A stretch of DNA of 24,666 nucleotides from positions 1 to 24,666 of IMG/VR virus record IMGVR_UViG_3300038306_000017; one strand, written 5' to 3'. A model generated the notes under the pieces. The model was not told the origin of the DNA. It saw only the letters and a list, made by a program, of their open reading frames with translations, and searched no databases. This DNA comes from a virus. Below are positions 1-12,273 of this stretch, piece after piece. How positions within the stretch are numbered: position 1 is the stretch's first letter; each line of letters starts with the position of its first letter. The position numbers were made by a program, and so were the translations under genes.

Positions 1-2
1 GG

Positions 3-104
3 GAGTTTGTAGAAAAGTATTTCACACTGGATGAAGTAGACGCTCTCAGAGGAGCTGTCAAGGCTAGAGTAGCAGAGAAGGTAAAGAAAATAATCGCAGC
101 CTAA
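3..104 (+). CDS. C-terminal end of an unidentified protein (partial)
   Basis: An open frame runs in from the left edge and stops with TAA at 102-104, giving the last 33 residues of a protein. The visible tail is charged and helical-looking (EFVEKYFTLDEV..., ending VKKIIAA). It is followed 20 bases later by a strong intrinsic terminator, as expected for the last gene of a plus-strand transcription unit. Too little remains to name a family, and the function is unknown. The frame is the only one of the three plus frames that stays open to this stop. Confidence 0.6.
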   Translation, partial: EFVEKYFTLDEVDALRGAVKARVAEKVKKIIAA

Positions 105-122
105 TCTAACCAGTAAACAATC

Positions 123-147
123 AAGCCGGCTTTATGCCGGTTTTTTT
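123..147 (+). terminator. Rho-independent terminator
   Basis: The arms CCGGC (126-130) and GCCGG (136-140) pair around a TTTAT loop. The stem can extend by a G-U and two A-U pairs into 123-125/141-143, and a run of seven T follows at 141-147. This is a textbook intrinsic terminator. It closes the partial gene on its left and separates it from the early promoter at 260-288. Confidence 0.9.
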
Positions 148-259
148 GTGTCTAAAATCCAGAGATAGGCTTCCATATATTCGATTTAAGCGTACTTTAT
201 ATAGTAAGTAATACCTAAGCCTGCCTAAAAGCTAATCATTGAAGCTATATACCTTGAGT

Positions 260-288
260 TTGACATTAGAGCATTATTATGAGATAAT
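260..288 (+). promoter_or_regulatory. Sigma70-type promoter for the early region
   Basis: A perfect -35 box TTGACA (260-265) is followed by a 17-base spacer and GATAAT (283-288), which matches the -10 consensus at 5 of 6 positions. It lies in a gene-free stretch between a terminator and the first early gene, with a predicted start near 295. Its position and match quality suggest that host RNA polymerase starts early transcription here. The repeated 16-base palindrome begins about 28 bases downstream of the predicted start. Confidence 0.78.
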
Positions 289-322
289 GTTTACATCAAT
301 CAAGGAATACCAGATTGGAATG

Positions 323-338
323 GCATAACATGTTATGC
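323..338. repeat. 16-bp palindromic repeat, copy 1
   Basis: The sequence GCATAACATGTTATGC is a perfect palindrome. This copy lies between the early promoter and the first early gene, ending 28 bases before its ATG. The same word recurs exactly at 978-993 and with one change at 4127-4142. As DNA it could be a dimer-binding operator. As RNA it could form a 6-bp stem with a CAUG loop. Confidence 0.85.
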
Positions 339-366
339 GTTAATAATAATTAAATAGAGGTGGTAT

Positions 367-975
367 ATGTACGATACTCATGCAATGGAAATTTCAGAGC
401 ATGCCTTAAAAACGCCAAAGGGTTTACTAGATGTAATTACGTTTGTATTTACTACAATCCAGCAACCCTTGAGCAGTTGTAAAAATCAATTGAATGATAT
501 TGATTTGCATGGCACTGAAAGCAAGTATTTATTTGGTAGCAAAAGAGCCGGATTAAAATACGCAATGGAAAATAAAACCAGATTATTTTGGAAGGTGCAA
601 GAATTACAGAAGGAATCACTAGAAAATATTGATACAGTCTGTAAAGCTGTGAGATTATTCATGGAAGTTCCCGGATTGGGAGCTGTAAAGGCTTCATTTG
701 TATGTCAAATGTTAGGCTTTAACGTGTCATGTATTGACAGTCATAACTTAAATAGGCTAGGAATGGAATTAAAAGATGTAACAATTCCTAATTCATTGAC
801 AGAAAAAACCAAGATGAAAAAAATAAAAGCCTATGTACACTTGACACAGAGAAAAGGTACTGTATACTGGTGGAACTCGTGGTGTGATTATGTAGCCAGT
901 AAAGGTGGCATGAATAAAACATTAACGACAGGTAATGAAGTGAGTGCATTCCATGTGGAGTGCGTAATTAGATAA
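367..975 (+). CDS. Helix-hairpin-helix protein, DNA glycosylase-like core
   Basis: 202 residues, first gene of the early region, with a good ribosome site (GAGGTGG) ahead of the ATG. Residues 101-117 read VPGLGAVKASFVCQMLG, a helix-hairpin-helix of the type that grips the DNA backbone. It is followed by an aspartate at D124 in CIDSHN. In HhH-GPD base-excision glycosylases such as the endonuclease III and MutY families, a hairpin like this precedes the catalytic aspartate by a similar distance, so a DNA-binding or base-removing role is possible. The usual catalytic lysine and the [4Fe-4S] cysteines of endonuclease III are not obvious, and the rest of the protein is not recognised. It could equally be a catalytically dead DNA-binding early protein. 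HhH fold: fairly confident; enzymatic role: inference only. Confidence 0.7.
   Translation: MYDTHAMEISEHALKTPKGLLDVITFVFTTIQQPLSSCKNQLNDIDLHGTESKYLFGSKRAGLKYAMENKTRLFWKVQELQKESLENIDTVCKAVRLFMEVPGLGAVKASFVCQMLGFNVSCIDSHNLNRLGMELKDVTIPNSLTEKTKMKKIKAYVHLTQRKGTVYWWNSWCDYVASKGGMNKTLTTGNEVSAFHVECVIR
841..868 (+). promoter_or_regulatory. Possible internal sigma70-type promoter
   Basis: TTGACA (841-846), a 16-base spacer and TATACT (863-868) lie inside the 3' part of the HhH gene, pointing at the small-gene cluster that starts at 1011. The match is good, but it sits in coding sequence in an AT-rich genome, so chance is possible. Confidence 0.35.
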
Positions 976-977
976 TA

Positions 978-993
978 GCATAACATGTTATGC
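978..993. repeat. 16-bp palindromic repeat, copy 2
   Basis: An exact copy of GCATAACATGTTATGC, placed directly after the stop codon of the HhH gene and ending 17 bases before the ATG of the next gene. The flanks are partly alike in copies 1 and 2 (AAT before, CGT after), so the conserved element may be slightly longer than 16 bases. Confidence 0.85.
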
Positions 994-1010
994 GTAATAG
1001 AGGAGAAGTA

Positions 1011-1283
1011 ATGGATTTGAAAAAAAGAATTGACTCAATAACTAATAACAGAATGTTTCATCAAGAGGGTTTTGAAAGTGGCATTAAAGATTTATTAGTA
1101 ACTGGTGCCTTTCATGACTGGTTAGATATATATACAATGCAAAGCATTTCTAGGTACTATAGCATTTCATGGATAGAACTGGTAGAATATGCAATTGATG
1201 AGCTTGGTTATGACAGTGGTAATGAAAACATAGATAAATTTTTTACTGATAAATTTGGAGATAGAGATGAGTATTACAGCTAA
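1011..1283 (+). CDS. Small early protein of unknown function
   Basis: 90 residues. The start at 1011 is chosen because GAGGAGAAG lies just upstream. An in-frame ATG at 990 falls inside the palindromic repeat and has no ribosome site. The protein begins MDLKKRIDSITNNRMF, is rich in aromatic and acidic residues and ends DKFGDRDEYYS. I do not recognise a family. It is the first of a string of small genes and overlaps the next by 17 bases. Soluble; no membrane segment or metal-binding motif is seen. Confidence 0.7.
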   Translation: MDLKKRIDSITNNRMFHQEGFESGIKDLLVTGAFHDWLDIYTMQSISRYYSISWIELVEYAIDELGYDSGNENIDKFFTDKFGDRDEYYS

Positions 1284-1527
1284 TGAAATAGATGAAAGAA
1301 CTATAACAGTTGAACGAATGACTGGTAATGGTACAAAGGAAATTACTAGAGATGACTTCATTAAAGTATGGGTGGACCATGCAAGCTTATGGTCATTGGT
1401 AGACTATGATGAGATAACAGTAATGCAAGTAATGGTAGATGAGATTAAAGCTGGCATTACAGAACTAGCTGGTCATAGTTGGGATTTAAAATATGAAAGA
1501 AAGGAGAAGCGTAATGATAAGTTATGA
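1267..1527 (+). CDS. Small early protein of unknown function
   Basis: 86 residues starting MSITANEIDER at the ATG at 1267, which has GGAGATAGAG upstream. A longer reading from the TTG at 1255 would put that ribosome site inside the gene. The gene overlaps its neighbours on both sides, so translation is likely coupled. The protein is acidic with several aromatic residues (VWVDHASLWSLVDYDE) and ends in a charged tail. No known domain is visible. Probably a cytoplasmic accessory or host-takeover protein, which is inference from position only. Confidence 0.65.
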   Translation: MSITANEIDERTITVERMTGNGTKEITRDDFIKVWVDHASLWSLVDYDEITVMQVMVDEIKAGITELAGHSWDLKYERKEKRNDKL

Positions 1528-1738
1528 AGGTGAAAGATATAATGTACAATTATCAACTGAAGTTACAGAGGAGAAAGCAAAGGAATTTGAAGATTGGTTT
1601 GATGATAACATTGGAACTGATTTACAAAAAGACACAGACTATGATGGAGTTTCAACATATGTCATGTGTGATATAACTAATGTAGAACTTAGAATGATTG
1701 AGGACTATGAAGATAATTATTTAATTGGAGAAGCGTAA
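1514..1738 (+). CDS. Small acidic early protein
   Basis: 74 residues starting MISYEGERYNVQL. The ATG at 1514 follows AAGGAGAAGCGTA, so it is preferred over the ATG at 1493, which lacks a ribosome site. The protein is strongly acidic, especially in the second half (EDWFDDNIGTDLQKDTDYDG and IEDYEDNYL). Small acidic phage proteins often mimic DNA or bind host enzymes, but nothing here identifies a target. The stop codon overlaps the next start as TAATG. Confidence 0.65.
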   Translation: MISYEGERYNVQLSTEVTEEKAKEFEDWFDDNIGTDLQKDTDYDGVSTYVMCDITNVELRMIEDYEDNYLIGEA

Positions 1739-1947
1739 TGAGCATAGTTCTTGACACGCCAGACCAGATACATGACTTTAGACATAGAACTTTATTGATT
1801 GGTTTGGAAACTGAAATTAAATTTCCCGGTCATCAATTAACTAGAGGTCGTACTTGTTACGCTAGAATTAAATCTGAGTTTGGATTAAAAGGTAACAAAC
1901 AAAAAGTGTACGACCAATTTAAACAACTGATAGAGGAGAAAACGTAA
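1738..1947 (+). CDS. Small early protein of unknown function
   Basis: 69 residues starting MSIVLDTPDQIHDFRHRTLL. The ATG shares bases with the previous stop (TAATG) and is preceded by GGAGAAGCGTA, almost the same junction as at 1514. The C-terminal half is basic (GHQLTRGRTCYARIKSEFGLKGNKQK), unlike its acidic neighbours, so nucleic acid binding is possible. No family is recognised. It ends in EEKT with another TAATG overlap at 1947. Confidence 0.7.
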   Translation: MSIVLDTPDQIHDFRHRTLLIGLETEIKFPGHQLTRGRTCYARIKSEFGLKGNKQKVYDQFKQLIEEKT

Positions 1948-2123
1948 TGCCAAAGTATAACTATACCGTAATGGTAGAAGGACAGAAGCAACTGGAAACC
2001 ACTAGCTTAGATGAAGCAGAAAAGTTTAAACTTGCAAAAGAACAAGAAGGTGGTTATAATGTAACTATAAAAAGACATTGGTACATGGACGAACTTATAA
2101 CACAGGAGAAAGATAATGACTAG
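1947..2123 (+). CDS. 58-residue early protein
   Basis: The frame starts with MPKYNYTVMVEGQKQLE behind GAGGAGAAAACGTA and stops with TAG at 2121-2123, overlapping the next gene by 8 bases. The alternation KYNYTVMVEG...YNVTIKRHWYMDEL suggests a small beta-strand fold with one helix (LDEAEKFKLAKEQEG). No family is recognised. The excellent ribosome site and the tight fit between its neighbours support a real gene despite its length. Confidence 0.65.
   Translation: MPKYNYTVMVEGQKQLETTSLDEAEKFKLAKEQEGGYNVTIKRHWYMDELITQEKDND
2032..2060 (+). promoter_or_regulatory. Weak candidate promoter
   Basis: TTGCAA (2032-2037), a 17-base spacer and a perfect TATAAT (2055-2060) lie within the 58-residue gene. 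The -35 box matches only 4 of 6, so this is a low-confidence candidate. Confidence 0.2.
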
Positions 2124-2313
2124 CAACAGCTTTAGTTTTATGAAGGAAGGTTTTGACTGGCAACAAGCACAGTCTAAAGATATGCAAGAATTAGATAGAC
2201 ATGACTCTGACGAACAGGAATTATTAGAGGAACAAATACGTATGAGGAATGATGACTTGCGTGATGAGTATAGAGAGCGAGGATTGGACCCTCGTGATTT
2301 TTGGAGCGAGTAA
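2116..2313 (+). CDS. Small highly charged early protein
   Basis: 65 residues starting MTSNSFSFMKEGFDWQQAQ, with AGGAGAAAGATA before the ATG. The middle is a dense run of charged residues likely to form one long helix (LDRHDSDEQELLEEQIRM, then RNDDLRDEYRERGLD). It ends RDFWSE and its stop overlaps the next start as TAATG. Function unknown; small helical charged proteins of this kind are often protein-binding inhibitors or adaptors, but that is only a possibility. Confidence 0.65.
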   Translation: MTSNSFSFMKEGFDWQQAQSKDMQELDRHDSDEQELLEEQIRMRNDDLRDEYRERGLDPRDFWSE

Positions 2314-2537
2314 TGAACCTAACAATATATACAAGTGATGTAAGAAACTTTGATGAGGAAGTGGATAAACACTTTGATGTTAAAGACTGGCATGGTTCTG
2401 GATTGTTTGACAAAGATGATAGGCTTTCTTTAGATAACTACAAGTATGGACTTGAACCTTACACATATATCAGTATAATGGTGGATATGCAAGAACAGAT
2501 TAACGAACTAAAGGAGATACTAAATGGCAAACCCTAA
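2313..2537 (+). CDS. Small early protein of unknown function
   Basis: 74 residues from the ATG at 2313, which forms a TAATG overlap with the previous gene and has GGAGCGAG upstream. An upstream in-frame TTG at 2301 would bypass that site. The protein (MNLTIYTSDVRNFDEEVDKHF...) has a beta-like N-terminus and a C-terminal helix (MVDMQEQINELKEIL). No family is recognised. It overlaps the next gene by 14 bases. Confidence 0.65.
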   Translation: MNLTIYTSDVRNFDEEVDKHFDVKDWHGSGLFDKDDRLSLDNYKYGLEPYTYISIMVDMQEQINELKEILNGKP

Positions 2538-2691
2538 CAATAATATGAACATGTATAACCAAGCATTGCAAATCAATAGAGATTTAAAGAAAAGAATTGA
2601 CAAAGCTAATGAAATAATAGATAATCTATTAGAAGTTAACGAGCACTTACAATATTTACATGACTTAAAGGAGTATCTAAATGGCAGATAA
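2524..2691 (+). CDS. 55-residue helical early protein
   Basis: The frame runs MANPNNNMNMYNQALQ... to a TAA at 2689-2691, with AAAGGAGATACTAA before the ATG. After an asparagine-rich start, most of it should be one amphipathic helix (INRDLKKRIDKANEIIDNLL onward), so a coiled-coil oligomer is plausible. It overlaps both neighbours by 11-14 bases. Function unknown. A near-consensus promoter lies inside it. Confidence 0.6.
   Translation: MANPNNNMNMYNQALQINRDLKKRIDKANEIIDNLLEVNEHLQYLHDLKEYLNGR
2597..2625 (+). promoter_or_regulatory. Internal sigma70-type promoter
   Basis: TTGACA (2597-2602), a 17-base spacer and GATAAT (2620-2625): exactly the same hexamers and spacing as the early promoter at 260-288. 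It would start transcription near 2632, ahead of the genes at 2681, 2920 and 3216. It lies in coding sequence, so it could be coincidental, but identity in both boxes and the spacer length argues otherwise. Confidence 0.55.
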
Positions 2692-2923
2692 GAATGGAAT
2701 AGAAAGAACTTATGCTAACAAAGATGAGTATGACTTTGAAGGTGGTGAGGTATATGATGGACCAGACTTCGATACTTACACAGTAAAGGTAAAGTGGACA
2801 GGTACCATTGCTTCCTTTAACATCATGGCTGAAAATGGTTCAGAAGCAATCAAGATAGCCAATGAAAAGCTAGACATGGAAAGTAATGGACTAATACATT
2901 TTGAATCAGAGGTAATGAAATGA
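2681..2923 (+). CDS. Small acidic early protein
   Basis: 80 residues starting MADKNGIERTYANKDEYDF, with AAAGGAGTATCTAA upstream. A central strand-like segment (DTYTVKVKWTGTIASFNI) is followed by a helix (GSEAIKIANEKLDM), a layout seen in small alpha/beta phage proteins of unknown function. Its stop codon is read through the ATGA overlap with the next start at 2920. No catalytic motif is seen. Confidence 0.68.
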   Translation: MADKNGIERTYANKDEYDFEGGEVYDGPDFDTYTVKVKWTGTIASFNIMAENGSEAIKIANEKLDMESNGLIHFESEVMK

Positions 2924-3219
2924 GTGAATATTATTTTGATAGAGTAAATTCTAAAGGTGAAGTTATATTTAAAAGAGATACTAATGAAAGCTTAGAGGAT
3001 GTTGAGAAGTATTTAAACTCTAAAAGCATAGAGTATGAGGTTAAAGAACAAGCTCATATGATAAAAGTATTTACAAAAGGTAGGGATTATTCTTACTACT
3101 ATACAACAGGAAGGTGGGCACCATATAAAAAATATTTAGGTGGCTATCCTAAAAAACATTACCATTCAAAAGGTATAGAAGATTTTATAACAAGGTTTAT
3201 ACAGGGAGAAAAAAAGTGA
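2920..3219 (+). CDS. Small tyrosine- and lysine-rich early protein
   Basis: 99 residues starting MSEYYFDRVNSKGEVIFKRD, opened by an ATGA overlap with the preceding gene and with AGAGGTAATGAA upstream. It contains many tyrosines and lysines (for example YSYYYTTGRWAPYKKYLGG) and is basic in its second half, in contrast to the acidic proteins around it. Binding to nucleic acid is possible. The family is not recognised. Its stop overlaps the GTG start of the following zinc-ribbon gene. Confidence 0.68.
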   Translation: MSEYYFDRVNSKGEVIFKRDTNESLEDVEKYLNSKSIEYEVKEQAHMIKVFTKGRDYSYYYTTGRWAPYKKYLGGYPKKHYHSKGIEDFITRFIQGEKK

Positions 3220-3392
3220 GATGCCGAGCATGTAACAAACAACTGAACGATAACGAGTCAGTGTATAAAGACAGTGAAACAGGTGAATACTTAGACATGT
3301 GTAACAACTGTATCCGTAAGAGCTATGCAAGTTTTGACTTGGAAGGTGATGATGATAGAAAATATGTTGAAACTTTGTTTACAAAATTATAA
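3216..3392 (+). CDS. Cys4 zinc-ribbon protein, GTG start
   Basis: 58 residues read from a GTG at 3216, which forms a GTGA overlap with the previous stop and sits behind GGGAG. No ATG in this frame allows a useful product. The N-terminus is MRCRACNKQL and is followed by DMCNNCIRKS, so two C-x2-C pairs about 28 residues apart should hold one zinc ion, as in small phage zinc ribbons with the pattern 'CRACNK...GEY.D.CN.C'. Such proteins usually bind nucleic acid or a protein partner; the partner here is unknown. Last gene before the structured leader, and the promoter at 3378-3406 overlaps its end. Confidence 0.72.
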   Translation: MRCRACNKQLNDNESVYKDSETGEYLDMCNNCIRKSYASFDLEGDDDRKYVETLFTKL

Positions 3393-3406
3393 TAGTATGT
3401 TATAAT
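3378..3406 (+). promoter_or_regulatory. Sigma70-type promoter for the replication module
   Basis: TTTACA (3378-3383) matches 5 of 6, with a 17-base spacer and a perfect TATAAT (3401-3406). It spans the end of the zinc-ribbon gene and the start of the only long gap before the replication genes. The predicted start near 3413 would give the SSB mRNA a leader of about 260 bases. Confidence 0.7.
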
Positions 3407-3676
3407 ATTATTATAGATATATATAAAGTAATAAAGGATAAAGAAAGGTAATAAGTAATAGCTATTAATAGCTATTATTAGGTAGCATAGAGGTTCTTCA
3501 AGGTAAACTTATGTTGTGCATAGAGGACCCTGTATTGTTAGGTTTTAATTAACCTCCTTACACTGTATGTGGAGTTTGTTTATCCCCTTTGTGTTACCTA
3601 CTAATAGTTTTTATATTAGCAATCATTATGATGTCGTGATTGTTGATACTTTTAATAGACATCAGAGGATATAATT
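3393..3676 (+). other. Structured AT-rich leader ahead of the replication genes
   Basis: 284 bases without a credible gene. It holds a 22-base perfect palindrome made of two tandem AATAGCTATT units (3456-3477), two copies of GCATAGAGG (3485-3493 and 3518-3526), a hairpin AGGTT/AACCT (3540-3544/3551-3555), a hairpin CTAATA/TATTAG (3601-3606/3614-3619), and a 7-bp pairing TGATGTC/GACATCA (3629-3635/3658-3664) whose right arm ends just before the SSB ribosome site. It could be a regulatory 5' leader, a replication origin, or both. No conserved riboswitch class is recognised. Confidence 0.55.
3456..3477. repeat. 22-bp palindrome of two tandem 10-bp units
   Basis: The unit AATAGCTATT, itself a palindrome, occurs twice head to tail (3457-3466 and 3467-3476). 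With one flanking base each side, the whole 22 bases is a perfect inverted repeat. It lies about 50 bases downstream of the promoter at 3378-3406. It could be a tandem operator, a cruciform or origin element. Confidence 0.7.
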
Positions 3677-4123
3677 ATGGCAGTAGCAATCGGTGAAGCA
3701 CTATACCCCGCTCTTTTTGAGCCTAAGGTAGATAAATACACACCAACACCCGGAGTTTATTCAATAGACTTGAAGGTAACTGATGAAGAAAGGGATAGAC
3801 TAATAGCATCTGGGTTAAAACCTAAACAAAAAGATGCTAATGTGTTTGTGTTTAAGCGTAAGCCTATCACAGCTAAAGGTAACCACATGCCTGCACCTAC
3901 AGTAGTAGATGAGAACAAGCATGGTTGGGATAGTGCAGTTAAAATTGGTAATGGTTCACAGGTAAAGGTAGCATACTCTACTTACGAACACCAAGCGACT
4001 GATGTTTATGGTCTTGGTAAATCTTTAGATGCAGTACAGGTGGTGAGCCTTGTTGAATACTCTGGTGGTGGCAATGCCATCGATGAGTTTGATGCAGTAA
4101 CTAAGGAAGATGTTCCGTTCTAA
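3677..4123 (+). CDS. Single-stranded DNA-binding protein, T7 gp2.5-like
   Basis: 148 residues, start chosen by AGAGGATATAATT before the ATG. The body fits a single OB-fold with alternating strands (GVYSIDLKVT near 26-35, NVFVFKRKP near 55-63, SQVKVAYSTYEH near 94-105). The C-terminus is acidic and ends KEDVPF, closely resembling the DDDIPF tip of bacterial SSB and the acidic aromatic tail of T7 gp2.5, which recruit polymerase and helicase. It would coat single-stranded DNA at the replication fork. Its position directly before primase-helicase and polymerase supports the call. The long structured leader suggests leader-level control. The palindrome and a hairpin follow its stop codon. Confidence 0.82.
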   Translation: MAVAIGEALYPALFEPKVDKYTPTPGVYSIDLKVTDEERDRLIASGLKPKQKDANVFVFKRKPITAKGNHMPAPTVVDENKHGWDSAVKIGNGSQVKVAYSTYEHQATDVYGLGKSLDAVQVVSLVEYSGGGNAIDEFDAVTKEDVPF

Positions 4124-4126
4124 TAG

Positions 4127-4142
4127 GCATAACATGTTATGT
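4127..4142. repeat. 16-bp palindromic repeat, copy 3 (one mismatch)
   Basis: GCATAACATGTTATGT differs from copies 1 and 2 only in the last base. It starts 4 bases after the SSB stop codon and ends 50 bases before the primase-helicase ATG. Like the other copies it sits in a short gap just ahead of a gene. Confidence 0.82.
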
Positions 4143-4143
4143 C

Positions 4144-4173
4144 TGGCTACTCTGTAATGGGGTAGCCACTTTT
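4144..4173 (+). terminator. Hairpin with short T tract between SSB and primase-helicase
   Basis: TGGCTAC (4144-4150) pairs with GTAGCCA (4162-4168), a 7-bp stem with an 11-base loop, followed by CTTTT. It could be a partial terminator or RNA-stabilising hairpin that keeps SSB expression above that of the helicase. The T tract is short, so full termination is unlikely. Confidence 0.45.
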
Positions 4174-4192
4174 AATTTAACTGGGATAGATT

Positions 4193-5803
4193 ATGGAACA
4201 GCAAGATGGCACCTTTGTCCAACATGAACCATGTCCAGAGTGTGGCAGTAAAGATAACCTAGCAAGGTACTCTACTGGTCAAGGATATTGTTTTGGTTGT
4301 GGACATTGGGAAGGACCTAACGGTCAAAGTAAAGCTGAACCAATTATAGAGGATAAGAGTATGGAATTATTTACAGGTAACAGTGGTGCCATAGTAGATA
4401 GAGGTATCAACGAGGATGTAGTACGAAAGTATGGGGTTACCTTACAGTATGGAGAGGATGGTTTAATCAAGAAGCATTGCTATCCATACCATGATGCTGA
4501 CAATGGTGAGCATCTAGGTAATAAGGTACGGACTGTTGAGTCTAAGGACTTTCTATATGATGGTAACAGTAAAGATGTAGGACTATTTGGAGAGAACATA
4601 TTCAAGGGTGGTGGTAAGTACATCACAGTCTGCGAGGGCGAGCTTGATGCAATGAGTGTTCACCAAATGTTCGGTAACAAGTACGCATCAGTCAGTCTAC
4701 GCACTGGCTCTAAGGGTGCGAAGAATGATATTAAGCGTAGCCTTGAGTACCTAGAGTCATTCGACTGGGTAGTGTTGTGCTTTGACACAGACAAGGCAGG
4801 TAAGGAAGCGACCAAGAGTGTAGTAGATTTGTTCTCACCTAATAAAGTTAAGGTGTGTAACCTGTCACTCAAGGATGCTAACGAGATGCTACTAGCAGGT
4901 AAGATTAGTGACTTCACCAGAGCATGGTGGGATGCTAAACCTTACAGACCTGATGGTATTGTAGCTAGTGAGGACACATGGAACATATTGACAGAGGAGA
5001 TACGTGTTGAGTCTGTTCCTTATCCTTGGGTTGGCGTCAATGATTTAACTTATGGCTTCCGTAAGGGTGAGCTTGTAACTATTACAAGTGGCTCTGGCAT
5101 GGGTAAATCTCAAATGGTCAGAGAGCTGGAACATTACTTGCTCAATGCAACTGATGAGAACATAGGTATCTTAGCTTTGGAGGAGAGCGTAAAGAATACT
5201 ACGCTAGGTGTTATGTCCATTGAAGCTAACAAACCATTGCACCTCAACATGCAAGATGTAGATGACAGTGAGCTTAAAGGTTACTGGGATAAGACTATGG
5301 GCAAAGGTCGTGTGTTTATGTATGACCACTTCGGTAGTACCAGTGAGGATAACTTACTCTCTAAGGTACGCTACCTAGCTAAAGGTTTGGATTGTAAGTG
5401 GATTGTACTAGACCACCTGTCTATCGTAGTCAGTGACCAAGAGGTACTTGATGAGCGTAAAGCTATTGACAGTATCATGACTAAGTTACGACAGCTCGTA
5501 CAGGAAACAGGCATAGGCTTATTCCTTGTTTCTCACTTGCGTAGACCAATGGGTAAAGGTCATGAAGAAGGTGGACAGATAAGTCTATCAGAGCTTCGTG
5601 GTTCAGCCAGTATTGCACAGCTCTCCGACATGGTGATTGGCTTAGAAAGAAATCAACAAGCAGAGGACCCAGTTGTTCGCAACACTACGATACTTAGAGT
5701 CTTAAAGAATAGATTCAGTGGACTCACTGGTCCTGCATGTTCTCTACATTACGACAAAGAAACTGGTAGAATGAAGGAAACAGATTCAGTGGGAGAATTT
5801 TAA
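4193..5803 (+). CDS. Bifunctional DNA primase-helicase, T7 gp4-like
   Basis: 536 residues. An N-terminal zinc-binding domain has CPEC (C14, C17) and CFGC (C33, C36). A TOPRIM primase core follows, with CEGELDA (E148) and CFDTDKAG (D198, D200). The C-terminal RecA-like helicase has Walker A GSGMGKS (300-306), Walker B WIVLDHLS (403-410), SHLRRP (447-452) and KNRFSG, whose R507 is a candidate arginine finger by comparison with T7 gp4. The protein should unwind the fork as a hexameric ring and make RNA primers for lagging-strand synthesis. It lies between SSB and polymerase, and its stop overlaps the polymerase start as TAATG. All key residues are present. Slightly shorter than T7 gp4 (566 residues). 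Confidence 0.95.
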   Translation: MEQQDGTFVQHEPCPECGSKDNLARYSTGQGYCFGCGHWEGPNGQSKAEPIIEDKSMELFTGNSGAIVDRGINEDVVRKYGVTLQYGEDGLIKKHCYPYHDADNGEHLGNKVRTVESKDFLYDGNSKDVGLFGENIFKGGGKYITVCEGELDAMSVHQMFGNKYASVSLRTGSKGAKNDIKRSLEYLESFDWVVLCFDTDKAGKEATKSVVDLFSPNKVKVCNLSLKDANEMLLAGKISDFTRAWWDAKPYRPDGIVASEDTWNILTEEIRVESVPYPWVGVNDLTYGFRKGELVTITSGSGMGKSQMVRELEHYLLNATDENIGILALEESVKNTTLGVMSIEANKPLHLNMQDVDDSELKGYWDKTMGKGRVFMYDHFGSTSEDNLLSKVRYLAKGLDCKWIVLDHLSIVVSDQEVLDERKAIDSIMTKLRQLVQETGIGLFLVSHLRRPMGKGHEEGGQISLSELRGSASIAQLSDMVIGLERNQQAEDPVVRNTTILRVLKNRFSGLTGPACSLHYDKETGRMKETDSVGEF

Positions 5804-7536
5804 TGAAACAAATTATACTGGACATAGAAGCTAACGGTCTTAGACCTGATACTATATGGTGTATAGTTGCAAAGGAGGTAGAGTATGGAACTACTAATGT
5901 CTTTATTGGCGAAGATATTTTTGAGTTTGCTGATTGGGTACGCCTTAATGGTGTTACTCATATTTGCGGGCATAATATTATTGGATATGATTTACCCGTA
6001 CTGGAAAAGATTACGGGATTCAAATGGAAAGGAGCTGTTCAAGATACGTTAGTCATGTCCAGACTTGGTCATCCTAATAGAGAAGCAGGTCATTCATTAG
6101 AGTCATGGGGTAATCGTCTTGGCTTTAGTAAAGGTGACCACTCTGAATGGGGTGAGTTCTCTTGGGATATGGTTGAGTATTGTAAGCGTGATGTAGAGTT
6201 GACCGAGAAGGTATACGAAACATTAAGCAAGGAACTTTCAAGCTTTAGAGAGGAGAGTATCCAGCTTGAGCATGACGTGGCTCGTATCATAACTGAACAG
6301 ATAGCTAATGGTTGGACTATCAATGAGCGTGAAGCTAACCTGTTACTCGGTGAGTTGAGAGAGAAGCTACATAATGTAGAGGTTGATGTACGTAATACAT
6401 TCAAGCCATTACCTGTGTGGATAGACTTACAACATCCCGGTGACAAGTGGTACAACAAGGATGGTAGTACGTCCAAGCGTGCACAAGCACAGCTAGATAA
6501 GGGTGCACACCGTAAAGGAAATGAATGGGGTTATAATATATTCCCTGACTTTAACCTTGGCTCTCGTCAACAGATATCTAGGTACCTTCAACACTTTGGT
6601 TGGAAGCCTAATGACTTTACAGAGAAAGGTAATGTCATTGTTAATGAGCGTGTACTCAATGAGGTAGACTTACCACAGGCTAAACAGATAGCCGAGTATC
6701 TTATGTTACAGAAACGTGTAGCACAGGTGCAGAGTTGGGTAGATGCAATCGAGATTGATGGTAGAGTACGTGGCTATGTCAATCCTATCGGTGCTGTAAC
6801 TGGTCGCATGACACATGCTAGACCTAACTTAGCACAGGTACCTGCATCCTATTCACCTTATGGCAGTGAGTGTCGTAAGCTATGGACCGTAGAACATGGC
6901 AACTTCCTAGTAGGTATGGATGCCAGTGGTCTTGAGTTACGTATGCTCGCCCACTATATGAATGACCCTGCCTATACTCGTGAGGTATTAGATGGTGACA
7001 TTCATACTGCTAACCAAAAGTCTGCTGGTCTACCTACTCGTGACCAAGCCAAAACTTTCATCTATGCTTTCCTATATGGTGCAGGTGATGAGAAGATTGG
7101 TAGCATTGTAGGTGGTACATCTGCTGATGGTAAGGAAGTGAAGCGTAAGTTCCTTGATAACACACCAGCTCTCAAGTCTTTACGTGAGCGTGTAGCAACA
7201 GCATCCAAACGTGGCTACCTTGTAGGCTTAGATGGTAGGCGTATATGGGTAAGGTCTGAGCACTCTGCTCTTAACACTTTACTCCAAGGTGCAGGTGCTA
7301 TTGTCATGAAGAAAGCTTTAACATTACTTGACGTTAAGGCTCGTGTCTATAATTGTAAGTACAAGATTGTAGGTAACATACATGACGAGATACAGACAGA
7401 AGTCCTTGACATGGATGCTAAAGCTTTTGGCAAACTTGCTGTCAAGTCTATACAACAAGCAGGTAAAGACTTTAACCTTAACTGTCCACTGGATGGTGAA
7501 TACAAGATAGGAGAAACGTGGAATGAAACGCACTAA
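5803..7536 (+). CDS. polA: Family A DNA polymerase with 3'-5' exonuclease
   Basis: 577 residues. The N-terminal proofreading exonuclease has DIEANGL (D7, E9), CGHNIIGYD (N58, D63) and YCKRDVE (Y126, D130). The polymerase has motif A DASGLELR (D373), motif B RDQAKTFIYAFLYG (R413, K417, Y421) and motif C GNIHDEIQ (H527, D528, E529). The segment GYVNPIGAVTGRMTHARPNLAQVP is very like T7 gp5. Tyr421 takes the place of E. coli Pol I Phe762, as in T7. At 577 residues it is much shorter than T7 gp5 (704), so a full thioredoxin-binding insertion is probably missing (inference). It is the replicative polymerase, co-translated with primase-helicase. The next gene starts 14 bases before its stop. Confidence 0.95.
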   Translation: MKQIILDIEANGLRPDTIWCIVAKEVEYGTTNVFIGEDIFEFADWVRLNGVTHICGHNIIGYDLPVLEKITGFKWKGAVQDTLVMSRLGHPNREAGHSLESWGNRLGFSKGDHSEWGEFSWDMVEYCKRDVELTEKVYETLSKELSSFREESIQLEHDVARIITEQIANGWTINEREANLLLGELREKLHNVEVDVRNTFKPLPVWIDLQHPGDKWYNKDGSTSKRAQAQLDKGAHRKGNEWGYNIFPDFNLGSRQQISRYLQHFGWKPNDFTEKGNVIVNERVLNEVDLPQAKQIAEYLMLQKRVAQVQSWVDAIEIDGRVRGYVNPIGAVTGRMTHARPNLAQVPASYSPYGSECRKLWTVEHGNFLVGMDASGLELRMLAHYMNDPAYTREVLDGDIHTANQKSAGLPTRDQAKTFIYAFLYGAGDEKIGSIVGGTSADGKEVKRKFLDNTPALKSLRERVATASKRGYLVGLDGRRIWVRSEHSALNTLLQGAGAIVMKKALTLLDVKARVYNCKYKIVGNIHDEIQTEVLDMDAKAFGKLAVKSIQQAGKDFNLNCPLDGEYKIGETWNETH

Positions 7537-7774
7537 CTTTACATGTGACAACGTAAACCCTAGCCATTATAGGCAAGGCAACATAGAAGTAATAGACTTT
7601 ATACTGGACCAGAAGATGGACTACCTAACTGCATCAGCTATGAAATATATATGTAGACATGCTCACAAGCATGGAGAAGGAGGAGATGGACAGATAGATG
7701 ACCTCCGTAAAGCAAGATGGTTTATTGAGAAACTAATAGACCATAAACTGGGAGAAAGAAATGAGCAAGATTGA
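7523..7774 (+). CDS. DUF3310 family protein
   Basis: 83 residues with a clear DUF3310 signature: NPSHYRQGNIEVIDFILDQ, then LTASAMKYICRHAHKHG, then IDDLRKARWFIEKLID. This small helical family is widespread in phages, usually among replication and nucleotide genes. It has sometimes been labelled nucleotide-kinase-like, but no kinase motif (no P-loop) is present and the biochemical role is not established. The start at 7523 has ATAGGAGAAACG upstream, inside the polymerase gene, and the two overlap by 14 bases. The next gene likewise overlaps its end by 14 bases. Confidence 0.85.
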   Translation: MKRTNFTCDNVNPSHYRQGNIEVIDFILDQKMDYLTASAMKYICRHAHKHGEGGDGQIDDLRKARWFIEKLIDHKLGERNEQD

Positions 7775-8603
7775 TAACTTAGTTCAAGATATATACGACC
7801 TAGCTGAAACAAAGAGTCACCCTGCTAGGGTACCTGCTGAACAAATCTTTAAAGACTTCGGTTCCAACATGGAATCAATCCTTAGAGATTGGCTATACCC
7901 TAAGGACTTTAGTGGTGGCACATTAAGGATGTCTAACATTGGACACCCTGATAGAAAGCTATGGTATAAACATAGGAAAGATAAGTACAAAGGTGAGCGA
8001 TTAAAAGCTCACACTTTAATCAAGTTTCTTTATGGTCACTTGATTGAAGAGATGATACTAGCTTTGGTCAAACTCTCTGGTCATGATGTAACAGATGAAC
8101 AGAAGAGAGTAGAGCTTGAAGGTATCAAGGGTTCAATGGACTGTAAGATTGATGGTCTATTGTGTGATGTAAAGTCTACATCAACCTATGGCTTCAAGAA
8201 ATTCAAAGAGAACAGTCTGCAATATGATGACCCCTTTGGATACATAGACCAAATCAGTGGCTATGGTCAGGCTGAGGGTGCTGATGAAGCATGCTTCCTA
8301 GCCATGGATAAATCAAACGGACACCTAGCTGTAACAAAGGTGGACCTGTTAGATAAAGATGTAGTAAAAAGAATCAAGCATGTTAAAGGGATGATAGAAT
8401 CAGATACAATTCCTGAGCCATGTTATGACCTAGTTGCTGATGGTAAATCAGGCAACATGAAACTGCCTATAGGATGTTCTTATTGTGAGTTTAAGAAACA
8501 TTGTTACCCTAACATGAGAGTCTTTGCCTATTCAACTGGTCCAAGATTCTTAGCTGTAGTCAACGTAGAACCTAAAGTAATGGAGATTAGAAATTATGAG
8601 TAA
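7761..8603 (+). CDS. Cas4/RecB-like PD-(D/E)XK exonuclease with C-terminal Cys cluster
   Basis: 280 residues with the ordered motifs of the RecB/Cas4 nuclease superfamily: GHLIEE (92-97), GSMDCKIDG with D127 (124-132), CDVKST with D136 and K138, and YIDQISGYGQA (161-171, Q164 and Y168). Near the C-terminus C239, C242 and C248 make C-x2-C-x5-C, the spacing of the three C-terminal iron-sulphur ligands in Cas4 and AddB. The fourth ligand in Cas4 is a cysteine just before an RxLWY segment. Here that segment reads GHPDRKLWY, with H62 near the place of the cysteine, so the cluster may be altered or may bind zinc. In T7 this part of the genome carries the gp6 exonuclease; this protein probably degrades host DNA or processes ends in its stead. 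Confidence 0.85.
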   Translation: MSKIDNLVQDIYDLAETKSHPARVPAEQIFKDFGSNMESILRDWLYPKDFSGGTLRMSNIGHPDRKLWYKHRKDKYKGERLKAHTLIKFLYGHLIEEMILALVKLSGHDVTDEQKRVELEGIKGSMDCKIDGLLCDVKSTSTYGFKKFKENSLQYDDPFGYIDQISGYGQAEGADEACFLAMDKSNGHLAVTKVDLLDKDVVKRIKHVKGMIESDTIPEPCYDLVADGKSGNMKLPIGCSYCEFKKHCYPNMRVFAYSTGPRFLAVVNVEPKVMEIRNYE

Positions 8604-8760
8604 AGAATATAAATTAATAGTAGCAGATGTGCGTAGCTTTGAACCCCAAGTAAACAGAGCTTTGGATATGGGATGGGAACTACAAGGCATTCCTTTTTAT
8701 GATGGCTCTAGGTTTATACAAGCTATGATTAAAGAGAAGTCTAAGAAGAAGGATAAATAA
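8596..8760 (+). CDS. DUF1737-like small protein
   Basis: 54 residues: MSKEYKLIVADVRSFEPQVN, then LDMGWELQGIPFYDG, then FIQAMIKEKSKKKDK. The order 'strand, VN...L..GW...G, ..QAM.K' is that of the DUF1737 family of small alpha/beta proteins, common in phages and bacteria and of unknown function. GGAG lies 10 bases before the ATG, inside the upstream nuclease gene. The stop overlaps the next start as TAATG. The basic tail might contact nucleic acid. Confidence 0.72.
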   Translation: MSKEYKLIVADVRSFEPQVNRALDMGWELQGIPFYDGSRFIQAMIKEKSKKKDK

Positions 8761-9026
8761 TGGAGTGGAGATACAGAGGGATGATGGACAAGGATGGTGT
8801 GTGTACTATACGAGAGGTTTTCTATGAGCCTGATGGTACAATCAGTAGCTTTGCTGTCGACCCTACTGTACCCACAGGTGACAGTCCAGATGAGTTAGTA
8901 TCTAGTATGGCTCTGATGTTGGAAAGTCTACAACAACCCTTCTTACTTGAAGGAGATTTTATACCGGAAGGAGATGGTGAACTTGAGTTTACTTTTATAA
9001 GAGAAGATGAAAACAAATACCATTAA
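8760..9026 (+). CDS. Small acidic protein of unknown function
   Basis: 88 residues starting MEWRYRGMMDKDGVCTIREVFYEPDGTI. A first strand-rich part is followed by one helix (DELVSSMALMLESLQQPFLL) and an acidic strand (EGDGELEFTFIRED). The pattern resembles many small phage proteins of the 'W.YR.....G...I.EVYYD..G.I' kind found beside replication genes. No function is known to me. It is joined to its upstream neighbour by TAATG and overlaps endonuclease I by 20 bases. Confidence 0.65.
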   Translation: MEWRYRGMMDKDGVCTIREVFYEPDGTISSFAVDPTVPTGDSPDELVSSMALMLESLQQPFLLEGDFIPEGDGELEFTFIREDENKYH

Positions 9027-9375
9027 ATATAGGAACAAGTTTGAAGCCGGTGTTGGTGATAAGCTAACTGGTTGGAACTATGAACCTTACCACATACCAT
9101 ACATAACAAAGCGTAAGTACACACCTGATTTTACTAAGGGTAATATATTAGTAGAGTGTAAAGGATTCTTTAGAGTAGGCGACACACAAAAGTATAAAGC
9201 TATTCGAGATTCTTTACATTCACAGGAGCTTGTGTTTGTTTTGACCAATGCTAACAAGAAAGTTAGGAAGGGTTCCAAGATTACTATGGGTGAGTGGTGT
9301 GAGAAAGAAGGGTTCAAGTGGTTCACAACAGATACATTGAAGGAGCTAAAGCGTTATGGCACTACTGCTAAATGA
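9007..9375 (+). CDS. T7 endonuclease I-like Holliday-junction resolvase
   Basis: 122 residues. The family core is clear: KYRNKFEAGVGDKL (E13), YEPY (E26), YTPDF (D41), then ILVECKGFF with E50 and K52 in an E-x-K pair. These line up with T7 endonuclease I residues E20, E35, D55, E65 and K67 with nearly the same spacing. The enzyme would cut Holliday junctions and branched DNA before packaging and help break host DNA, acting as a domain-swapped dimer. Slightly shorter than T7 gp3 (149 residues). The gene starts within the previous one and its end is overlapped by the next by 20 bases. Confidence 0.87.
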   Translation: MKTNTIKYRNKFEAGVGDKLTGWNYEPYHIPYITKRKYTPDFTKGNILVECKGFFRVGDTQKYKAIRDSLHSQELVFVLTNANKKVRKGSKITMGEWCEKEGFKWFTTDTLKELKRYGTTAK

Positions 9376-9517
9376 ACTTAAAGAAAAGATAACCCAAGAG
9401 TTTGATGTCTGTCTGCTCTGTGACTTCTTAGATATAGAACCTGAGGAACTGATAGAAAGATTTGACGACAAGCTTATTGATAACTTACATAAATTTAAAG
9501 GAATAGAGGATGAATAA
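9356..9517 (+). CDS. 53-residue protein upstream of the RNR
   Basis: Reads MALLLNELKEKITQEFDVCL then LCDFLDIEPEELIERFDDKL and ends KGIEDE. GAAGGAG stands 10 bases before the ATG. It is acidic and helical, and the 'FD...L...LDI.PEEL...F' arrangement occurs in small proteins next to replication or RNR genes in other phages, possibly a helix-turn-helix-like fold. Function unknown. It overlaps endonuclease I by 20 bases and the RNR start by 8, so it is clearly part of the same translated chain. Confidence 0.65.
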   Translation: MALLLNELKEKITQEFDVCLLCDFLDIEPEELIERFDDKLIDNLHKFKGIEDE

Positions 9518-11474
9518 ATTACCAACTGATTACCAAAACTTTATTGCTCTTAGCAGGTACGCAAGGTGGCTACCTGAAAAGAAACGTAGAGAAACATGGA
9601 AGGAAACAGTAGCACGCTACTTTGATTTCATGGAGGTACATCTGAAAGAGAACACTAACCAAGAGTTAGTACCTAAGACTCGTAAGATTCTTGAGGAAGC
9701 TGTGCTTAACTTAGATGTTATGCCTAGCATGAGAGCACTAATGACAGCAGGTCCAGCCTTAGCTAAGAACCACATAGCAGGATACAACTGTGCCTACCTA
9801 AGTGTTGACCACCCTAAAGCATTTGATGAATGTCTATTCGTTCTTATGCACGGTACTGGTGTTGGCTTTAGTGTAGAGCGACAGCAAGTAAACAAACTAC
9901 CTGAGGTACCAGAGGAGCTAGTAGATGTAGAAGATGTCATCGTAGTACAGGATAGTAAGGAAGGATGGCAGTCTGCATTCCGTAAACTTATTACCTATCT
10001 CTATGATGGTGAGATGCCTAAGTGGGATTTTTCTAAGGTAAGACCTAAGGGTGCTAGACTATCTACCTTTGGTGGTAGAGCATCAGGACCTGAACCATTA
10101 CTAGACTTGTTTAACTTCTCTACTAATCTATTTAAAGATGCAGTAGGTCGTAAGCTAACTAGCTTTGAGTGTCACCGTATGATGTGTAAGATTGCAGAGG
10201 TTGTAGTTGTAGGTGGTGTACGTAGGTCTGCACTTATCTCTTTGTCTAACCTAACTGATGAACGCATGCGTAATGCTAAGTCCGGTCAATGGTGGTCTGA
10301 TACCCCTGAGATGGCACTAAGTAACAACAGTGTATGCTACACAGAGAAGCCAGACATTGGTATCTTCATGAAGGAGTGGACTTCTTTATATGAATCCAAG
10401 TCAGGTGAGCGTGGTATCTTTAATAGAGAAGCAGCAATTAAACAAGTAGCTTCTATTGGTAGACGTGATACTGACCATGACTTTGGTTGTAACCCTTGTA
10501 GTGAAATCATTCTTAGGGATGGACAGTTCTGTAATCTAACCGAGGTAGTAGTCAGAGCAGAAGATAAGCAAAAGGATATACTCCGTAAGGTTAGACTGGC
10601 TAGTATACTTGGTACGTTCCAAGCATCACTGACTAACATCAAACGTCTACGTCCTAAGTGGGTACACAATACAGAAGAGGAAGCATTACTAGGTGTGTCA
10701 TTAACTGGCATCATGGACAATGAGTTCATGAATGGAAGTAACACAGACAGAGGACATTACGGTAAACGTAACCTACCTGATTTCTTATCAGACTTAAAGA
10801 AAGAAACTGTTAAGACTAACAAGGACTGGTCAGAGCTATTAGGTATTCAACAAGCTACTGCTACTACTGCTATTAAACCTAGTGGTACAGTCAGTCAGCT
10901 AGTAGATAGTGCCAGTGGTATACACACTAGACACAGTGATTACTATATCCGTAGAGTCAGAGCAGATTCTAAGGACCCAATAGCACAGCTAATGGAGGAC
11001 CAAGGTATACCTGCTGAACCTGATGTAATGAAACCTAACAGTGTAAAAGTATTCTCATTCCCTATGAAAGCTCCTAAGGGTGCAGTAACTAGGAACGAGA
11101 GGAACGCTATTGAACAACTAGAGCTCTGGCTTATGTATCAAAGATACTACTGTGAGCACAAGCCTAGTGTAACCATTAGTGTTAGGGAACATGAGTGGAT
11201 GGAAGTAGGTGCGTGGGTATACAAACACTTTGATGAAGTGTCCGGTGTATCTTTCCTACCTCACTCTGACCACACATATCAGCAAGCACCATATGAAGAG
11301 TGTGATAGAAAGACTCATGATGAACTAGCTTGGAAGATGCCTAAGGAAGTTAACTGGGATTTGATTAGCGAGTATGAATTAACAGACCAAACTGTAGGTA
11401 CTAAAGCACTAGCCTGTACTGGTAGTGTATGTGAACTTGTTGACTTGGTTGAAGAAGAGAGGGATATAGAATGA
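9510..11474 (+). CDS. nrdJ: Adenosylcobalamin-dependent class II ribonucleotide reductase, monomeric type
   Basis: 654 residues. The active-site pieces of Lactobacillus leichmannii RTPR are present: C94 in YNCAYLSV (RTPR C119), NPCSE with C330 and E332 (C408, E410), and C341 in QFCNLTEV (C419), with the same 11-residue gap between the last two cysteines. C-terminal C636 and C641 (CTGSVC) reproduce the C731/C736 pair that passes electrons from thioredoxin. It should reduce ribonucleotides, probably triphosphates, to deoxyribonucleotides using coenzyme B12 as radical source, without oxygen or a second subunit. The spacing C94 to C330 is about 50 residues shorter than in RTPR, so part of the insertion/effector region is trimmed. 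GAATAGAGG lies just upstream of the ATG. Its stop overlaps the next start as ATGA. Confidence 0.93.
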   Translation: MNKLPTDYQNFIALSRYARWLPEKKRRETWKETVARYFDFMEVHLKENTNQELVPKTRKILEEAVLNLDVMPSMRALMTAGPALAKNHIAGYNCAYLSVDHPKAFDECLFVLMHGTGVGFSVERQQVNKLPEVPEELVDVEDVIVVQDSKEGWQSAFRKLITYLYDGEMPKWDFSKVRPKGARLSTFGGRASGPEPLLDLFNFSTNLFKDAVGRKLTSFECHRMMCKIAEVVVVGGVRRSALISLSNLTDERMRNAKSGQWWSDTPEMALSNNSVCYTEKPDIGIFMKEWTSLYESKSGERGIFNREAAIKQVASIGRRDTDHDFGCNPCSEIILRDGQFCNLTEVVVRAEDKQKDILRKVRLASILGTFQASLTNIKRLRPKWVHNTEEEALLGVSLTGIMDNEFMNGSNTDRGHYGKRNLPDFLSDLKKETVKTNKDWSELLGIQQATATTAIKPSGTVSQLVDSASGIHTRHSDYYIRRVRADSKDPIAQLMEDQGIPAEPDVMKPNSVKVFSFPMKAPKGAVTRNERNAIEQLELWLMYQRYYCEHKPSVTISVREHEWMEVGAWVYKHFDEVSGVSFLPHSDHTYQQAPYEECDRKTHDELAWKMPKEVNWDLISEYELTDQTVGTKALACTGSVCELVDLVEEERDIE

Positions 11475-11533
11475 TAGAAACAGTCTTACTTATTTTAGCT
11501 TTACAAATATTAATAATTAATTTAGGAGAATAA
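11471..11533 (+). CDS. 20-residue hydrophobic membrane peptide
   Basis: MIETVLLILALQILIINLGE, opened by an ATGA overlap with the RNR stop and preceded by AGAGGG. Nearly the whole peptide is one membrane span. It is very short, so it is held at moderate confidence, but its ribosome site and tight placement before two more single-span proteins argue that it is made. Possible roles are a small holin-like or membrane-anchoring peptide (inference). Confidence 0.45.
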   Translation: MIETVLLILALQILIINLGE

Positions 11534-11534
11534 T

Positions 11535-11669
11535 ATGTGGTATAATAAAGGAGTAACACCAAAGAAACTATTTAACTTAGCAATGCTAGGGGTAGGTAGT
11601 GTATCAGCAGTGTCGTTGATATATGTTGTTATGTTTCTGGATGCCCTTCGTAAAGGGTGGCTAGTATAA
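11535..11669 (+). CDS. 44-residue single-span membrane protein
   Basis: MWYNKGVTPKKLFNLAMLGV followed by GSVSAVSLIYVVMFLDALRKGWLV. One membrane segment (about residues 14-35) is flanked by lysines at the N-terminus and an arginine and lysine near the C-terminus. TTTAGGAGAATAAT gives a strong ribosome site. The stop is followed by the next small membrane gene. No family is recognised. Its place at the end of the replication block does not identify a role. Confidence 0.6.
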   Translation: MWYNKGVTPKKLFNLAMLGVGSVSAVSLIYVVMFLDALRKGWLV

Positions 11670-11692
11670 TGTTAAACTTTAAAGGAGTAGTT

Positions 11693-11803
11693 ATGAAAGA
11701 TATAATTAACCAAGTTCTTGAGAACAAATCGCTTACTGTGTTTCTAGGTGTAGTGATTGTTGCGTTGGTATTCGGATGGCTAGGTGCCCCTGCCGGTGCA
11801 TAA
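11693..11803 (+). CDS. 36-residue single-span membrane protein
   Basis: MKDIINQVLENKSLTVFLGV then VIVALVFGWLGAPAGA. The ATG at 11693 has AAAGGAGTAGTT in front; an in-frame ATG at 11669 would swallow that site and overlap the previous stop as TAATG. A short amphipathic start is followed by one membrane span and a small-residue tail. This is the third membrane miniprotein in a row. Function unknown; small membrane proteins of this shape can be holins or antiholins, but no direct evidence is visible. Confidence 0.58.
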   Translation: MKDIINQVLENKSLTVFLGVVIVALVFGWLGAPAGA

Positions 11804-11814
11804 GATGTTTAATA

Positions 11815-11842
11815 GGGGTCTTGTTCGTATGGACAGGACCTC
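11815..11842 (+). promoter_or_regulatory. Strong 12-bp RNA hairpin upstream of the last plus-strand gene
   Basis: GGGGTCTTGTTC (11815-11826) and GGACAGGACCTC (11831-11842) pair over 12 positions, including three G-U wobbles on the plus-strand RNA, around a GTAT tetraloop. No T tract follows on either strand, so it is not a normal intrinsic terminator. It could be an RNase III processing site or an mRNA stability element. Confidence 0.55.
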
Positions 11843-11871
11843 AATACTCTACTTAAAACTAAGGAAACAAT

Positions 11872-12273
11872 ATGCCTTTAAACAAAAGCAACGACATAAA
11901 AGAATTAAAGAAGTTTGACATTGATTTGTCATTCGGACAACAGTGGGAGAAGTACATTGATGAAATGTTTTCCGGTGCTAAGACTTGTGAAGTAAAAACA
12001 GAACGTGACAAGTGGGCACAGACAGGTAACATATGTATTGAGAGTGAAAGTTATGGTAAGCCTAGCGGAATTGCAGCTACTGAAGCTGACTTATGGGTAC
12101 ATAACTTAACTGTTGATAACCAATTGGTTTGTAGTCTTGTGTTCCCAGTCGACAAGCTAAAAGAAATACTACCTAAGCTACCTCAAAGAAGTGTTATGGG
12201 TGGTGACAACAACGCAAGTAAGTTACAGCTAGTGAACCTAGTTAAACTTATAGAAACTCTGAAGGGTTTGTAA
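11872..12273 (+). CDS. Putative PD-(D/E)XK nuclease-like protein
   Basis: 133 residues starting MPLNKSNDIKELKKFDIDLS, with CTAAGGAAACAAT upstream. The core FGQQWEKYIDEMFSG, CEVKTERDKWAQTGN, IESESYGKPSGI and EADLWVH has the look of a restriction-endonuclease-like fold: an early glutamate, an E-x-K pair (E40 and K42 in CEVKTERD), then a strand and a helix. Similar small proteins with 'EVK.ERD.W..TGN...E' occur in marine phages and are usually unannotated. A structure-specific or degradative nuclease role is inference. It is the last plus-strand gene, and its 3' end overlaps the lysozyme gene on the other strand by 26 bases. Confidence 0.65.
   Translation: MPLNKSNDIKELKKFDIDLSFGQQWEKYIDEMFSGAKTCEVKTERDKWAQTGNICIESESYGKPSGIAATEADLWVHNLTVDNQLVCSLVFPVDKLKEILPKLPQRSVMGGDNNASKLQLVNLVKLIETLKGL

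Follow-up and report, generated by a model that had tools for sequence, protein, structure and literature searches.

The window, by which we mean the whole 24.7-kb stretch of DNA analysed here, is a fragment of a virus record and derives from a marine-type phage. Its early genes run rightward and encode a single-stranded DNA-binding protein (SSB), a primase/helicase, a DNA polymerase, a Cas4-type exonuclease, an endonuclease and a ribonucleotide reductase, while the late block runs leftward. Judged by SSB, the nearest described relatives are the pelagiphages HTVC103P, HTVC104P and HTVC115P, at 34-36% identity. Features at the left end of the early region, where a palindrome recurs at three sites (B, C and D), are the following:

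3..104, plus strand: 3' end of gene A1 (last 33 codons and stop codon), the candidate regulator gene; tblastn with the A1 of contig L035 gave 91% identity over 33 aa at 3-101, and the rest of the gene lies outside the window
123..150, plus strand: intrinsic terminator after A1, with an 8-pair stem and a T tract
260..288, plus strand: sigma70-like promoter P_B, TTGACA-17-GATAAT with TG extension, 11/12
323..338, no strand assigned: site B, GCATAACATGTTATGC, in the leader that precedes the 202-aa gene, about 34 nt past the -10 box of P_B
367..975, plus strand: 202-aa early gene, no family match
841..868, plus strand: promoter-like TTGACA-16-TATACT inside the 202-aa gene, 11/12, about 110 bp ahead of site C; also found in contig L076
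978..993, no strand assigned: site C, GCATAACATGTTATGC, in the gap that separates the 202-aa gene from the small gene after it
3677..4123, plus strand: ssb, gene of a gp2.5-like single-stranded DNA-binding protein (phrog_112, E 1.9e-11)
4127..4142, no strand assigned: site D, GCATAACATGTTATGT, directly past the ssb stop codon
4144..4168, plus strand: terminator-like hairpin immediately after site D, with an 11-pair stem and the tail CTTTTAATTT
4193..5803, plus strand: gene of a DNA primase/helicase that follows site D (phrog_239, E 1.5e-185)

The total number of promoter-like matches in this region equals that in shuffled sequence, and a promoter like P_B lies 34-42 nt ahead of site B in phages of site types 1-3 (defined below). 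Between P_B and site B, at 289-322 in the window and likewise in the site B leaders of relatives, there is a short inverted repeat that varies between phages (e.g. TGAATC...GGATTCA) and is perhaps a 5' stem-loop.

The preliminary description of this DNA had reported a palindrome in three copies ahead of plus-strand genes, and our scan with up to three mismatches confirmed it: GCATAACATGTTATGC is exact at 323-338 and 978-993, has a single mismatch at 4127-4142 (last base C to T) and finds no fourth match in the 24.7-kb window. Dinucleotide-shuffled sequences (n=100) contained 0.20 matches on average, and 0/100 gave three. All three copies are wholly non-coding, in a stretch (bases 1-5803) of which 11% is non-coding, and the late block of the window holds no copy, as had been claimed. 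The start codons after sites B, C and D follow at the reported distances of 28, 17 and 50 nt, given that translation after site C starts at 1011; an ATG at 990 sits within the palindrome itself, and a Shine-Dalgarno sequence precedes 1011.

The set in the window is incomplete. An exact search with the palindrome retrieved 15 viral contigs, among which the near-complete relatives (36.7 and 38.2 kb) carry exactly four copies, namely A, B (=323), C (=978) and D (=4127), the extra one being located about 850 bp upstream of 323 and thus past the left end of the window. In these near-complete relatives the word is not scattered inside genes, all four copies lying in gaps that correspond, and close relatives keep it there. 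It is absent from the stretches read of the nearest isolates by SSB (HTVC103P, HTVC115P and S-SRP02). Site A occupies a divergent region with leftward terminase genes on one side and the rightward A1 promoter (TTGACT-16-TATATT) on the other, the -35 box being 24 nt past the site. Directly behind it comes A1, a gene of 164-186 aa and the first of the rightward early region.

The surroundings of site A hold further elements. To its left (e.g. L076 6836-6856) is a conserved block, GAGTGATTGTAGTTTTT, whose minus strand reads AAAAACTACAATCACTC and contains TACAAT, which may serve the leftward late promoter as its -10 box and is 7-16 nt away from the palindrome. The leader that separates site A from A1 (e.g. 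L076 about 6950-7000) contains GAGAATGATTCTCATTAAC in type 1 phages and GGGAATGATAACCATTCTC in L085/L087, each agreeing by eye at 15/19 positions with the classical Fur box, GATAATGATAATCATTATC. A1 leaders of other types show other stem-loops at the Fur-box-like position, so that this element may be only a hairpin.

No Pfam, PHROG or PDB match was obtained for A1, tblastn found no counterpart among 50,697 phage records of isolates, and none was found in bacterial genomes. Two structure models were of low to middling confidence, and neither had a significant PDB match. The first has predicted helices at 29-37, 40-55 and 61-73 followed by a beta hairpin, with a local pLDDT of about 76-86, and the second was poorer; that A1 might be a winged-helix protein is no more than a guess from those helices and the hairpin.

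Relatives were gathered in two ways, through SSB and through A1, and both sets were scanned for palindromes. Each phage keeps to one variant, and phages differ in which one they have. Type 1 is GCATAACATGTTATGC, type 2 is ACATAAGA-N-TCTTATGT, type 3 is GCATAACA-N-TGTTATGC and type 4 is GTATAACATGTTATAC; type 5, GGATAACATGTTATCC, occurs in two copies in a contig that ends before A1, and a looser clade reads roughly RYATAACA-N(0-2)-TGTTATRY. The half-site core ATAA is constant across the types and the looser clade. In a tree built by maximum likelihood from 19 A1 proteins there is one clade per site type, requiring 4 changes, the minimum, versus 10.8 in shuffles. Since near-copies make shuffles easy to beat, a natural swap seen in L034/L105 is the stronger evidence. 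Terminase, SSB and primase of this relative are 97-99% identical to those of window-type phages, whereas its A1 shares 26-31% identity with that of type 1, and type 2 is found at each of the sites A, B, C and D. Around site D, DNA alignment limits the change to the tail of ssb and the gap that follows, after which the primase is again nearly identical. Another contig, L045, is 97% identical in terminase and SSB, yet lacks A1 together with sites A, B and C.

Presence of A1 also goes with the number of sites. This was assessed in the SSB-found contigs, which were not chosen by A1, and A1-found contigs were left out: A1 was present in 7/7 contigs with at least three sites and in 0/8 with at most one site and enough upstream reach (Fisher 1.6e-4, for a small sample of contigs that are related rather than independent lineages). 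What is directly seen, then, is where the sites lie, that they change in concert from phage to phage and that they co-vary with A1. The earlier idea that one of the unknown small genes encodes the regulator is narrowed to A1 as candidate, of which the window holds only the last 33 codons.

Several contigs depart from the four-site arrangement. L031, L045 and L073 have a lone D site and no A1, and these orphan sites are perhaps remnants. A gene X of about 150 aa, split in some cases, replaces A1 in L039, L031, L041 and L073, and site D has decayed in L036, L037, L039 and L041 (ACATAGTGTTTATGT). The 202-aa gene was considered as specificity determinant and rejected: it is absent from type 4, loose-type and other multi-site relatives, and it is 88% identical across differing site types.

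The palindromes could alternatively be recombination joints that bound exchangeable gene cassettes and have no regulatory role. The genes and flanks beside B and C indeed vary among relatives while the 16-mer stays, site D was exchanged as a small patch, and the contig L005 mixes types, with type 1 at C (567) and type 2 at D (2909), being either a recombinant or a misassembly. Recombination, however, needs the same sequence between phages, and what we observe differs between phages, is uniform within each and tracks A1, with the sites at fixed gap positions near promoters and stops. We regard joints as a very improbable explanation.

The preliminary description had offered two alternatives for the palindrome, a site for a dimeric regulator or an RNA hairpin in the leader of the next gene, and the first is well supported by the symmetry of the sites and the pattern of their mismatches, which disfavour the second. 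As RNA, the transcribed palindrome (a 6-7 bp stem) would act on stability, translation or antitermination, with an RNA-binding protein of the phage recognising it in the way that lambda N recognises boxB. In that system a type-specific short hairpin-capable repeat is paired with a type-specific protein, and the present phages resemble it in that the type of a repeated hairpin-capable element is matched to the type of a protein; co-variation with A1 would also fit it. B and C do lie in leaders ahead of ribosome sites, D abuts a terminator hairpin, every main variant is able to fold, and the spacing of the arms varies by 0-2 nt. Among 38 distinct 17-bp sites at A1 loci, however, the eighth bases are complementary in 33/38 and the centre base can be any letter. 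Eighth bases would be unable to pair in a triloop but are half-site positions in a DNA dyad, and dyad symmetry that continues through the would-be loop in this way favours duplex DNA. The outer positions vary independently, with A...C mismatches in 12 sites versus G...T in 7; RNA pairing would favour G...T over A...C, and the observed A...C is no rarer. Hairpin energies range from -1.3 to -5.6 kcal/mol in the main types, some sites hardly fold (-0.4), and type 1 has an unremarkable minimum free energy (z -1.2). Site A, moreover, lies upstream of the A1 promoter and may go untranscribed. Symmetry, mismatches and the position of site A thus set these phages apart from lambda N/boxB and make a role as RNA unlikely; they point to a symmetric protein that reads the duplex. 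A spacer of 0 or 1 bp, depending on the type, implies that dimer geometry would differ between types.

That protein could be supplied by the host, whose box many kinds of phage would then have copied. A search of viral contigs with the type 3 motif found unrelated phages with 5-7 exact copies of RYATAACANTGTTATRY per record (L188 with sites 2504-11927, L154, L189, L187 and L139), and more copies with loose matches. In the stretches read the copies are mostly intergenic, and some of these phages presumably come from freshwater, going by their sample codes. Neither A1 nor an RNA polymerase or integrase match was detected in them. One 17-bp motif shared by several unrelated lineages in which A1 is not detectable would suit a host transcription factor, and it also means that another protein may read the motif. 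Two of these lineages each have a different site-bordered gene, of 165 aa or 207 aa, which are candidate regulators. Profile comparison, with very thin alignments, showed no similarity of these genes to A1 or to each other, and one more scan, for the 165-aa family, brought no link. On the bacterial side, 85,000 genomes of bacteria and archaea (257 Gb) hold GCATAACANTGTTATGC in 71 stretches, where uniform composition would give about 60. A motif at chance level does not favour a host box, and a switch of site type in step with A1 between near-identical phages is unexpected for a shared factor; we consider a host reader improbable. Repeated units with the extended palindrome GTAGGGGCATAACAATGTTATGCCCCTAC were noted in L227, L241 and L248 (a Gomphosphaeria aponina MAG); they are probably a repeat element of cyanobacteria that has no relation to the phage sites.

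We favour the reading that the palindromes are DNA operators of the phage regulator A1, arranged in the manner of stoperators, and, going by sequence comparison, give it a probability of roughly 0.68. Each palindrome would be bound by a symmetric protein dimer at two 8-bp half-sites, GCATAACA in this phage, with A1 as the most likely binder. The protein would be made early by the host RNA polymerase and occupy all four sites, exerting feedback on its own promoter at site A and blocking or limiting transcription at B, C and D, which may help the change from early to late expression. Site B is placed about 30-40 nt downstream of a second promoter, and C and D lie in operon gaps. Binding by A1, its dimeric form and a mainly repressive or roadblock effect are what we infer from these arrangements. 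Several observations count against this reading: A1 has no recognisable domain and its models are weak, orphan D sites persist where A1 is missing, L005 combines sites of two types, and unrelated phages in which A1 was not found carry the 17-bp motif in 5-7 copies. Repression or a roadblock seems somewhat likelier than activation, and activation or mixed action keeps a sizeable share, a little short of even odds. Of 14 sites in the loose-type clade, 8 lie within 110 bp of a promoter that scores 10/12 or better (a fraction of 0.11 for random positions), and several are just upstream of strong promoters; sites this close to promoters would also suit an activator.

A single-subunit RNA polymerase (PF00940) had no match in six records of the group, and neither had an integrase (PF00589), the contigs being incomplete. 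A re-run on four records gave the same outcome, with a phage known to have both genes as positive control (S-SRP02, PF00940 at 9e-53). With no RNA polymerase found, transcription must be carried out by the host enzyme, and it is reasonable that an early regulator would be needed. The lack of a match for such a polymerase gene also tells against the palindromes being promoters of a T7-type phage RNA polymerase.

Known phage operator systems offer partial parallels. In Cluster A mycobacteriophages such as L5 and Bxb1, which are of temperate ancestry, stoperators are dispersed in promoters and short intergenic gaps as asymmetric 13-mers that are oriented with transcription and bound by a monomer (PMC6550527, PMC9283540). 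The A1 phages are alike in having four sites each, all in gaps, though fewer than L5, and in that the site sequence follows the phage's own protein, one A1 clade per site type. They differ in that the sites are 16-17 bp palindromes confined to the early region. As regards temperate ancestry, no integrase match turned up in the incomplete contigs. Aca autoregulators are small phage proteins with clear HTH domains, each acting on an inverted repeat close to its own promoter, inside the core promoter of one operon (PMC9410906). A1 is likewise small and would act on an inverted repeat near its own promoter; its predicted helices and beta hairpin have no domain match, and its sites are at several loci and outside the core promoter, site A ending some 24 nt ahead of the -35 box and site B following the -10 box at about 34 nt.

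A literature search found no published description of the motif. An operator set with a matching regulator is itself of a known kind, and the novelty is in the unannotated protein family and in the swapped specificities of nearly identical phages. It is conceivable, as a tentative extension that we hold for less probable than its opposite, that A1 founds an undescribed DNA-binding family by which marine phages of apparently lytic habit acquire exchangeable operator specificities, a form of immunity-like typing that needs no lysogeny, and that other lineages use the same operator word through different, unrecognised proteins. In a group without a detectable RNA polymerase or a recognised repressor, the palindromes would bear on the timing of gene expression. 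The series of matched proteins and sites, together with a near-identical pair in which the types are swapped, opens regulator, target and specificity to direct tests. If the proposal is true, a DNA-binding family without annotated relatives would be gained, along with a DNA tag by which such phages may be spotted in metagenomes.
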